From the NCBI GenBank assembly GCA_947478005.1, contig CANJVG010000010.1:1-54364 (forward strand): a stretch of 54,364 bases of DNA, given 5' to 3'. Within the stretch, counting starts at the first letter, position 1. Every line of letters starts with the position of its first letter. Position numbers and translations under genes: made by a program. Below, one piece after another: positions 28,454 through 32,291 of this stretch. This stretch comes from Bacteroidota bacterium (GTDB taxonomy: Bacteria; Bacteroidota; Bacteroidia; Chitinophagales; LD1). The notes below the pieces were generated by a model. That model made no database searches, had not been told where the DNA came from, and saw only the letters and a list, made by a program, of their open reading frames with translations.

Positions 28454-28915
28454 TTAGAATAACTTTTTCGGGGCAAAATGAATTTTAATTGTCTTGTCTT
28501 CGCGATAAAAAATAGCAAAGTCAATTTTGTCTAAATGCTGATTAGTTTTTTGTTCTGCATGTTCTGAATAAACTAAACCAACACCGTAAAGTATTTTAGA
28601 GTATTCAAATTTTATTAGCAATCGTTTAATGGAAGTTGAGTAGTCGTTATTATTCTTTAGGTCTTGAACTTTTATAAAGTCGTCAAGTACAAACCTGTCT
28701 TTGTTTTCAAAGAAAACTACAGTCTTGTTTTTTATGGCTACTATGTCAGGAATAAATGCCCCTTTATTTTTTGTAGTTCTTAATTCTTTGTTCGGATGTA
28801 ATGAAACACCAGTTCCACTTTGCGGAAAGTCGAAACAAATGATTTCCCAATCATTCTCTTCAAGCCATTCAAGTATGGCTTTTGTTGCTTGTTCTTCTGT
28901 TATGCGTCTCTCCAT
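28454..28915 (-). CDS. Small PD-(D/E)XK nuclease-like protein of the R-M operon
   Basis: A 153-residue protein. FIPDIVAIKNKTVVFFENKD (about residues 53-72) contains PD, a hydrophobic strand and E-N-K, a canonical PD-(D/E)XK active site. The N-terminus (ATKAILEWLEENDWEI) resembles the helical start of restriction-type endonucleases. Its start codon lies inside the end of the 411-residue gene (16-bp overlap), so the two are translationally coupled. It is the third gene after the methyltransferase. It may be the cutting subunit, or a nicking/repair accessory such as Vsr, although the sequence does not look like Vsr. A/T-rich like the rest of the operon. Confidence 0.7.
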   Translation of the reverse strand: MERRITEEQATKAILEWLEENDWEIICFDFPQSGTGVSLHPNKELRTTKNKGAFIPDIVAIKNKTVVFFENKDRFVLDDFIKVQDLKNNNDYSTSIKRLLIKFEYSKILYGVGLVYSEHAEQKTNQHLDKIDFAIFYREDKTIKIHFAPKKLF

Positions 28916-30135
28916 AATGCTCCGTCTGGAAATAATATTGCGTCTGCAAAATATGAAAATACTCTAATGTGCTTTACTTTAGAAAACATTGAACCATAAC
29001 GAACTTGCATATAGTATCTTGGTATCTCACTATGTTTTAATTGAGCATATTTTTTGGTTAAGAGATTTTTACTTTCGCTTGACTTAACGGCACTCACAAA
29101 ATCTTTTATTTTCCCTTTTTTCCCTTTAAGGATGATTGTTTTCTTTTTATCATCCACTTCTACATCAGACCAAGCCATTACTAAATTATACTCTCTATCT
29201 TCAAATGTCTTGCCTTCTCTACAAAGTAAATAATCAATGGCAGCTAAAGCACCGGGATATGGATCGCCTCTAAATCCTGCGTCAACTTTGTAAACAATAG
29301 TTTCCTTTCTACTTCTAAGTAGCTCTCCAATTTTATATGAAGAACTCTCATAAGTTTTGAGGTAATTTAATATATAATCAGTCGGCACCTTTATTGTCGC
29401 TGTCAAAGGAGACATATTGTTATTTCCACCTTTAGCGGCAAATTCAGTTTGCATGAAATTCTTCCTATCAATTACAATCCTTTTTCCAAGGAGCTTTTCT
29501 CTGCCTTTTATAACACCAGTAGTTTCAACGACATTGATAATTTCATTAATAGCATCAAACATCAACTTCATTTCTGAATCTCTGCTATCAGGGCTTCCTG
29601 CAAAATTTCTATTCGTATCGAATTTCAATCCTTTACTTCTAATATTTGGCGAACTCGTAGCTAATGGATGTGAGCGATAATCGGAAGGGAAGTAATAGAA
29701 AAGTGCAGGAATTTTATAAATACTCATTACGTTGTCCAATGCTCTAAAAACTAAAGGATTTATTGAGTCCCATTTTGTAGTATTACCTTTCGTTCGATTA
29801 ATAATCACAGCTTCAGGATAAATGTAGAATGCAGGTACATTATTTTCTACTGATGCCGCTAAACGGCCAAACCTTTGAAATACATTGTGACCTGTGCCTG
29901 CTTCCGTAGAAACTTCAATTGAAAATATTGGTTCAGAATCTAATTCAACGATTAGGTCTGGAGCATCGAGATAAAGAATCTGCTTTATATGGTCTGGCAT
30001 TGTATGGAATTGAGTTGCATTGTTTGCATCACTTTCATACATTTTTTTCTTAGTGAAGGTTTTACCTGAAAGACCTGTTTTGGCGATTATATAATCCGCA
30101 AAACTTTCCGTACTGTACCAAATTCTATATTTCAT
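28900..30135 (-). CDS. Putative type II restriction endonuclease
   Basis: A 411-residue protein without close family recognition. DAPDLIVELDSEPIFSIEVS (about residues 53-72) looks like a PD-(D/E)XK core, but the expected lysine is serine (E-V-S). A following TEAGTGHNVFQRFGRLAASV fits a nuclease helix. A second acidic/basic part (about 370-411: AQLKHSEIPRYYMQVRYGSMF) may contact DNA. Its start overlaps the methyltransferase stop by 4 bp (ATGA), which supports a matched restriction partner. The specificity is unknown. Given the missing lysine, this subunit may recognise DNA while the 153-residue protein cuts. Confidence 0.7.
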   Translation of the reverse strand: MKYRIWYSTESFADYIIAKTGLSGKTFTKKKMYESDANNATQFHTMPDHIKQILYLDAPDLIVELDSEPIFSIEVSTEAGTGHNVFQRFGRLAASVENNVPAFYIYPEAVIINRTKGNTTKWDSINPLVFRALDNVMSIYKIPALFYYFPSDYRSHPLATSSPNIRSKGLKFDTNRNFAGSPDSRDSEMKLMFDAINEIINVVETTGVIKGREKLLGKRIVIDRKNFMQTEFAAKGGNNNMSPLTATIKVPTDYILNYLKTYESSSYKIGELLRSRKETIVYKVDAGFRGDPYPGALAAIDYLLCREGKTFEDREYNLVMAWSDVEVDDKKKTIILKGKKGKIKDFVSAVKSSESKNLLTKKYAQLKHSEIPRYYMQVRYGSMFSKVKHIRVFSYFADAILFPDGALWRDA

Positions 30136-31400
30136 AAGTATTTTTTTATTGCTATTGCTACTGCCTTTGCTAACAAAGGAGGAACGGCATTGCCTGTTTG
30201 AACTCTACCTTGAACAATTCCTCCACTAACAATAAAGTTATCTGGAAAACTTTGTAATCTACATCTTTCTCTAATGCTCAGCCCTCTATTATCTGATGGA
30301 TGTCCGAATTGAAATTGAGGTCTTATTCCGCCAGAAACTTGCGTAGGACTTTGAATATCCCAAGCTAAGCGAATTCTTTGTTTGAACTTTGGATACATTG
30401 GAGTACCTGGCTTTGTACTTTTAATTTTTTCAATTACTGCTATAGGATGATTGGGAGCTTTATGATTTGTTAGTTTATCTTCTTTTAAGTTTTTTCTCAT
30501 TAACTTTTGATACTCACTAAATGGTTCTTTCTTGTATTTAGTAATAACTTCATTTGGCTTTAAGCTTGGTAAGTCACCAATAGCATCTTTAACTGTGACA
30601 TAAGGTTTTTTAGTTTCTGGACCGTGTGTTTTTTTAATTTCAGAAAAGTCGAATTCTTCTCCATCTCTAATTCCTACGAAAACTAATCTTGTCCGTGATT
30701 GCGGCACACCATAATCCGGAGCAAAAAGCAATTTGCTTTTTACTTTCATATTTCCTGCAAGACTTAAATCTTTTTCAATTGTTTTCACAAAATCGCCTGT
30801 ACTTTTCATTCCAGAAACATTTTCTAAAACAACTACTTTTGGTTTCAATGCTTTTACAAAACGAATAAACTCTTTATAAAGTAAATTCCTTTCATCGTCT
30901 TCGTGTCTCTTTCTATTATTCAATGAGAAACCCTGACAAGGCACTCCACCAATTAATACATCAACCTGTCTGCCGTCTAAAAGCTGTAAAAATGATTTTG
31001 GATTTACCTTTCTAACATCACCTAAAACAGTTGAAACATTCGGATGGTTAGTTTTAAATGTATTTATTGAAGGCTGGTGTATGTCGCAACCAATAGCAAT
31101 TTCAAAACCAGCTAATTCAAAACCTAAAGAAGTTCCCCCACATCCACAGAATAATTCTACAACAAGAGGTTTGTCATTTGCTGGAAGTGTACCTTTAGTT
31201 ATAAATGGATCGCCTTTCCAATAATATCCATTTTCTTCGACTTTAACGGATTTATCCCAAACATTAATTTTATCAATTACATCAAGGTCGATGTCGTCTG
31301 GATTTTCATCAATTCTTAATTGATACGCTTCCTCCTCAACTGTGTTAAGAATATCGCTATCAATTTCCTTATACGCTTTTATCTTTACCTTTTTCGGCAT
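30132..31400 (-). CDS. C5-cytosine DNA methyltransferase (type II R-M)
   Basis: A 422-residue modification enzyme. An N-terminal extension of about 75 residues precedes motif I (VVELFCGCGGTSLGFELAGF, about 78-97). The catalytic motif IV is GGVPCQGFS (about 150-158), with the cysteine that attacks cytosine C6. Motif VI is VVLENVSGM (about 194-202) and motif VIII is YGVPQSRTRLVFVG (about 228-241). A target-recognition region and motifs IX/X (RLQSFPDNF, QTGNAVPPLLAKAVA) complete it. It is first in a tight three-gene operon, as expected for protection before cutting. The low G+C compared with its neighbours suggests horizontal acquisition. Confidence 0.93.
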   Translation of the reverse strand: MPKKVKIKAYKEIDSDILNTVEEEAYQLRIDENPDDIDLDVIDKINVWDKSVKVEENGYYWKGDPFITKGTLPANDKPLVVELFCGCGGTSLGFELAGFEIAIGCDIHQPSINTFKTNHPNVSTVLGDVRKVNPKSFLQLLDGRQVDVLIGGVPCQGFSLNNRKRHEDDERNLLYKEFIRFVKALKPKVVVLENVSGMKSTGDFVKTIEKDLSLAGNMKVKSKLLFAPDYGVPQSRTRLVFVGIRDGEEFDFSEIKKTHGPETKKPYVTVKDAIGDLPSLKPNEVITKYKKEPFSEYQKLMRKNLKEDKLTNHKAPNHPIAVIEKIKSTKPGTPMYPKFKQRIRLAWDIQSPTQVSGGIRPQFQFGHPSDNRGLSIRERCRLQSFPDNFIVSGGIVQGRVQTGNAVPPLLAKAVAIAIKKYL

Positions 31401-31924: not shown

Positions 31925-32155
31925 CAAAAACGGTTTTTGATATATGAAAAACCGAAAATGATTATAAGAAAATGGTTTTCTTATATAGAAAAACCAAAAA
32001 TGATATATCAAAAATGCTTTTTGATATTAAGAAAACGGATTTTGTAATTAGAAAAATGAATTTCTTATATAAGAAAATGCTTTTCTTATATAGAAAAACG
32101 CTTTTTGATTATAAGAAATTGGATTTCTTATATAAAAAAACGGTTTTTGGTGTTA
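31925..32155. repeat. 21-bp intergenic tandem array C (11 exact units)
   Basis: Eleven units of exactly 21 bp without indels, plus partial units at each edge. A typical unit is GAAAAACGG then TTTTTGATATAT: an A tract, a 3-4-nt G/C-containing centre, and a T tract. Second halves are drawn from a few words (TTTTTGATATAT, TTTTCTTATATA, ATTTCTTATATA, AAAATGATATAT). The array lies between the start of the R-M operon and the end of the PLP-enzyme gene, both on the minus strand. A plus-strand frame stays open over it only because of the 7-codon period. Confidence 0.92.
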
Positions 32156-32291
32156 AGAAAATTGAAAAATACAGGTCCAAAAACAGAGAAACTATTGAAC
32201 AGGAGGCTTTTTAGTGCAAAATCTGCCCTAAAAAGACGAAGGGAGGAATATTTGGTTCATCTTTCCGTTTCCCCTCTAAACTCCTCGTTCA

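Follow-up and report, generated by a model that had tools for sequence, protein, structure and literature searches.

A predicted two-subunit restriction enzyme of the BsmI/BtsI/BsrDI kind encoded with a single C5 methyltransferase in a three-gene operon of a Bacteroidota bacterium

Three overlapping genes occupy the minus strand of the window, which here means the whole 54,364-nucleotide stretch of Bacteroidota bacterium DNA that was analysed. In transcription order they are M (31400-30132), encoding a C5-cytosine DNA methyltransferase of 422 aa, B (30135-28900), encoding a putative large restriction subunit of 411 aa, and A (28915-28454), encoding a putative small restriction subunit of 153 aa. 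The overlap is 4 bp (ATGA) between M and B and 16 bp between B and A (28900-28915, minus strand), and the three overlapping genes listed in a preliminary description of this DNA are thus real. Chance open reading frames were ruled out by shuffling the 2,947-bp stretch 200 times, which gave a longest frame of 79 aa on average and 134 aa at most, and all three frames are intact in some relatives. GC content is 33.8% in this stretch and 42.3% in the remainder of the window, and it drops at either boundary of the stretch. Upstream of M, at 31930-32170 of the window, lie A+T-rich imperfect repeats in which TTTTTGATAT- and TTTCTTATAT-like words are linked by AAGAAAA-like words, as judged by eye.

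The M protein consists of a single catalytic domain with an N-terminal extension of about 75 aa (30132-31400, minus strand). It matches PF00145 with an E value of 4.5e-68 (230.5 bits vs a cut-off of 22) and TIGR00675 with an E value of 3.4e-54, and with both PCQ and ENV motifs present it qualifies as a C5-cytosine DNA methyltransferase. The PCQ motif (residues 154-156; 30933-30941, minus strand), the catalytic motif of this family, is invariant in an alignment of four sequences. When M was compared with plasmid and phage methyltransferases, no enzyme with a stated specificity was found among the matches listed; the closest plasmid relative among these, at 48.6%, is carried by Thermus thermophilus plasmid pTthSNM7-6d (locus L046, 3879-5711), and neither B nor A is annotated beside it. 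An unannotated stretch downstream of that relative looks by eye like a MutY/endonuclease III-like glycosylase, perhaps serving the repair of deaminated 5mC.

The small subunit A carries a canonical PD-X12-E-N-K active site from P56 to K72 (28700-28750, minus strand; assigned by column conservation), in which P56, D57, E70, N71 and K72 are invariant in 26/26 aligned sequences, confirming the complete PD...ENK noted earlier. Similarity to Hjc Holliday junction resolvases (PF01870) is weak, with an E value of 0.0042 that falls below the Pfam cut-off. An AlphaFold2 model of A (mean pLDDT 91.7) gave no Foldseek match under an E value of 0.001. In VIA-align, residues 464-655 of BsmI ranked first (Z 10.7, rmsd 3.3, 140 residues), with other PD-(D/E)XK nucleases scoring nearly as high (XisH proteins, Z 9.6 and 9.3). 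On this modelling, A probably cuts the second strand of a site.

The large subunit B has no Pfam or NCBIfam match. It matches the PADLOC model PDLC03392, "Type II nicking endonuclease", with an E value of 8.4e-6 over residues 43-148 only, and 23 of the 24 aligned B sequences match the same model; the one that does not is a distant single-chain protein matching another PADLOC Type II restriction enzyme model. Column conservation places a non-canonical active site at P59 D60 ... E74-X12-Q87 R88 (29872-29961, minus strand). D60, E74, Q87 and R88 are invariant in 24/24 aligned sequences and P59 is present in 23/24, in an alignment that includes a relative at 24% identity. B reads E-V-S after its PD (P59 D60 ... 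E74 V75 S76), as the preliminary description had observed in pointing to a missing lysine. The motif PD-Xn-E-X12-QR is reportedly the active site of the large part in the group of enzymes discussed below; B fits it, and the absent lysine is thereby accounted for. The active site of BtsIB is given as P57, D58 and E72, with a P-D-E spacing identical to that of P59, D60 and E74 in B, according to the published account of that enzyme (PMC2909958).

The AlphaFold2 model of B (mean pLDDT 81.0) is weaker than that of A and is low at residues 34-40 and 378-387. Searched with Foldseek against the PDB, it gave only four clear matches, all of them BsmI entries (E 9e-9 to 2.1e-8), and VIA-align superposed it on BsmI 2-444 with Z 15.8 and rmsd 5.2 over 321 residues, the best unrelated row reaching Z 6.2. 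The model suggests that B recognises the site and probably nicks one strand. The preliminary description had raised, as one of two possibilities, that one protein recognises and the other cleaves. The need for two proteins survives in the best-supported model, but B as a mere recognition subunit with a dead site probably does not, since its invariant D60, E74, Q87 and R88 fit a different kind of active site, one for nicking a single strand.

Structure prediction of each protein, proposed at the outset as a check, thus leads to a single enzyme in both cases: B and A superpose on consecutive, non-overlapping parts of BsmI (PDB 9f38, 9ez5, 9ez7 and 9ezd), of which residues 2-444 have the fold of B and residues 464-655 the fold of A. 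Sequence identity in these superpositions is only 11-15%, and PDB sequence searches with B, A or their single-chain relatives gave no match to BsmI; the link therefore rests on predicted structures. BsmI is one chain, whereas the window system is encoded by two genes, and the PDB titles naming top- and bottom-nicking mutants of BsmI indicate two separate active sites. The two-gene arrangement also fits the description of BtsI and BsrDI, in which a large subunit recognises the site and nicks one strand while a small subunit without specificity cuts the second (PMC4081073, PMC2909958), a likeness drawn from those published descriptions and from residue spacing. The pairing, not recognised as an established type in the preliminary description, does correspond to one, with B and A equivalent to the N- and C-terminal parts of BsmI in a BtsI/BsrDI arrangement (PMC4081073, PMC2909958). 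From the models, the nuclease pair is most likely of a known kind, the BsmI/BtsI/BsrDI group (Type IIT).

Natural single-chain relatives were found in genome G110 (locus L009, 5487-7256; 589 aa) and on a plasmid of Helicobacter sp. NHP19-003 (locus L048, 3995-5755; 586 aa). Both align at the N-terminus with the B profile (hhalign E 2.3e-6, probability 89), E-X12-QR included, and at the C-terminus with the A profile (E 1.1e-7, probability 94), ENK included. This fusion of B- and A-like parts supports B + A as one functional enzyme. In the best-supported model both proteins, as the preliminary description had suggested, are needed for double-strand cleavage. That the two would instead have separate activities, B as a single-chain endonuclease and A as a repair or nicking enzyme, is very improbable: the weak resemblance of A to Hjc resolvases, shared by 23/26 of its homologues (PF01870), leans that way, but B- and A-like parts are fused in the single-chain relatives and in BsmI, B has no canonical lysine, and the three genes stay together in 28/31 loci. 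For A, the earlier suggestion of a dedicated repair or nicking enzyme is left unsupported by the same fusions and by the same linkage. A heterodimer of the BbvCI type, in which subunits of similar size both take part in recognition (PMC4081073), was rejected on the unequal sizes of 411 and 153 aa.

A scan of one genome per species yielded 31 loci with a relative of B, spanning Bacteroidota, Chlorobiota, Campylobacterota, Bacillota, Gracilibacteria and one Neisseria MAG, six phyla in all, where many of the loci come from MAGs and single phylum assignments may be wrong. Three of the loci (L013, L028 and L036) seem to share their records with the loci from genomes G592, G603 and G671. The order M-B-A on one strand is found in 28/31, and L022, L027 and L039, which make up the remainder, are each cut off by the end of a contig; co-occurrence of the three genes, another check suggested at the start, is thus seen in every locus that is not truncated. 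The 16-bp B/A overlap recurs in 21 of the 29 loci having both genes (the value for L030 being a genetic-code artefact). Across 26 of 32 sets, made up of the window and 25 of the 31 loci after six were dropped for split, truncated, missing or fused genes, the distances of M, of B and of A are correlated (r 0.83, 0.65 and 0.66, each reached in 0/2000 permutations). Relative to the window, M of locus L012 is 95% identical and B only 76%, and exchange within the cassette therefore probably occurs.

Relatives of B are rare around the genome of the window. They were found in 1/40 genomes of the nearest set, which is that genome itself, in 0/17 other genomes of the genus, in 4/298 genomes of the order including its own, and in 2/395 genomes of the phylum, one of them its own and the second encoding a distant single-chain protein. 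Judged from this sequence distribution, the cassette looks like a recent horizontal gain. A search with the nicking-endonuclease model of the 398 genomes in the phylum of G674, which holds locus L037, returned only G674 itself, and no relative of B was found by sequence in plasmids, phages or viral contigs.

Several loci depart from the standard form. Broken or fused B frames occur in three of the 28 full loci (L026, L037 and L038). The B frame is broken by frameshifts in L037 (5998-7169) and L038 (1561-2792), and in L039 (4734-6242) both M and B are broken, reflecting either assembly errors or decay. In L026 (5947-7314; Mariniphaga sp. KA03), residues 1-361 of B are fused in frame to residues 64-153 of A, a single 455-aa frame left after the 3' part of B and the 5' part of A were lost; this cassette is immediately preceded by a gene for a Vsr mismatch endonuclease (PF03852, E 6.2e-32). 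A small helix-turn-helix gene, possibly encoding a control (C) protein, directly precedes M in L011 (4393-4731), L012 (4368-4730), L025 (4388-4759) and L040 (4379-4735), where it was confirmed by Pfam, and upstream of M in L014, L015, L016, L021, L023 and L026, where it was judged by eye; in the window, the coding strand upstream of M shows no open reading frame of at least 35 aa. Locus L030 (4845-7679; Candidatus Gracilibacteria, JAAXWG010000002.1) holds an M-B-A cassette recoded to read UGA as glycine: B has 19 TGA and 0 GGN glycine codons, the three open frames together have 58 TGA and 3 GGN, and the DNA is 22% GC. Here a restriction-modification operon crossed a genetic-code boundary and was adapted.

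The unusual point is one methyltransferase instead of two, kept in 28 loci. As a rule, though not as a strict definition, a Type IIT system comes with a pair of methyltransferases, either separate or joined in one chain (PMC4081073). No such pair is seen here, a single-domain C5 methyltransferase standing alone in 28/28 full loci, and for this reason the system is called a Type IIT variant. BtsI is described with two methyltransferases, M1 and M2 (PMC2909958), as against the one C5 enzyme of the window. The single-chain relatives differ in the same respect, having one chain and two adjoining methyltransferases where the window has two chains and one: two PF01555 matches lie beside the chain in G110, and two annotated methyltransferases beside that on the Helicobacter plasmid. 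A literature search, whose scope excludes REBASE, found no description of a single-methyltransferase Type IIT family, which is no proof of absence.

As happens in an ordinary Type IIT system, the site might be fully asymmetric and its other strand protected by a second methyltransferase, here a distant or host-encoded one. The general rule for Type IIT systems (PMC4081073) and the two methyltransferases adjoining both single-chain relatives speak for such an enzyme, as do two further PF00145 matches besides M and three PF02384 matches elsewhere in the genome of the window. We nevertheless consider it unlikely, as M-B-A recurs in six phyla and no second methyltransferase was found beside it by amino-methyltransferase or C5 motif in the 28/31 loci with flank ORFs (a simple motif test under the standard code, with several flanks short and with L016, L030 and L031 having no flank ORFs). 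Moreover, the genome of the window has no PF01555 or PF02086 match, and the C5 methyltransferase on its contig C5 belongs to another operon. That operon (locus L052, 1592-6098), where proteins of 617 aa (DUF262-like by eye) and 459 aa come after the methyltransferase, is probably a second, unrelated restriction-modification system.

Single C5 methyltransferases usually read symmetric sites. The constant presence of one single-domain C5 methyltransferase in all 28 full loci, with no second nearby by motif, would also agree with a Type IIP-like system, in which the heterodimer, an asymmetric two-site nuclease, acts on a fully symmetric (palindromic) site and M methylates both strands. If true, heterodimeric two-site enzymes would no longer be tied to asymmetric recognition. 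The odds seem to be well against it, however, because the Type IIT enzymes named in PMC4081073 all read asymmetric sites and the same source gives quasi-palindromes as the known solution with one methyltransferase. The few Type IIS systems of this sort, BbvI and MlyI, have one methyltransferase and a quasi-palindromic site that is asymmetric for the restriction endonuclease and symmetric for the methyltransferase (PMC4081073). Like the window system, BbvI (GCAGC/GCWGC) and MlyI have one companion methyltransferase, their nucleases being no part of the likeness; BbvI cuts at a distance (8/12; PMC4081073), unlike BtsI (2/0; PMC2909958). On the strength of the single methyltransferase and of the BbvI/MlyI precedent, we lean towards a quasi-palindromic site for the window system, one that would be asymmetric to B and A and an ambiguous palindrome to M.

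In the mechanism that we propose for the B + A enzyme, B would bind the recognition site and cut one strand with its PD-Xn-E-X12-QR site, while A, as an Hjc-like PD-E-K nuclease without specificity of its own, would dock on B and cut the other strand. Double-strand cleavage would need both subunits, and the single C5 methyltransferase M would protect the site on both strands. The computations show the gene structure, the homology and fold of the proteins, the conservation of active sites and cassette, and the natural single-chain relatives; from them we infer the docking of A on B, the order of the cuts and nicking by B alone. The restriction-modification operon of the preliminary description is borne out. 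We put at about 0.84 the probability that M-B-A is a Type II restriction-modification operon, complete and horizontally mobile, with a two-subunit enzyme of the BsmI/BtsI/BsrDI group (Type IIT), in which B and A are both needed for double-strand cleavage.

The nuclease kind itself was already known, and what is new here is a variant that combines a Type IIT-like nuclease with a single C5 methyltransferase. If this reading is right, the cassette represents a coherent and widespread branch of split enzymes of the BsmI/BtsI type for which one methyltransferase is enough, and it would offer an easy way to test how an asymmetric nuclease is reconciled with the protection of its host. B-type large subunits would then be natural strand-specific nicking enzymes, and about thirty new ones, possibly with new specificities, would form a practical resource. 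Found in six phyla, and among them in a lineage that uses a different genetic code, the cassette shows how far small restriction-modification operons travel.
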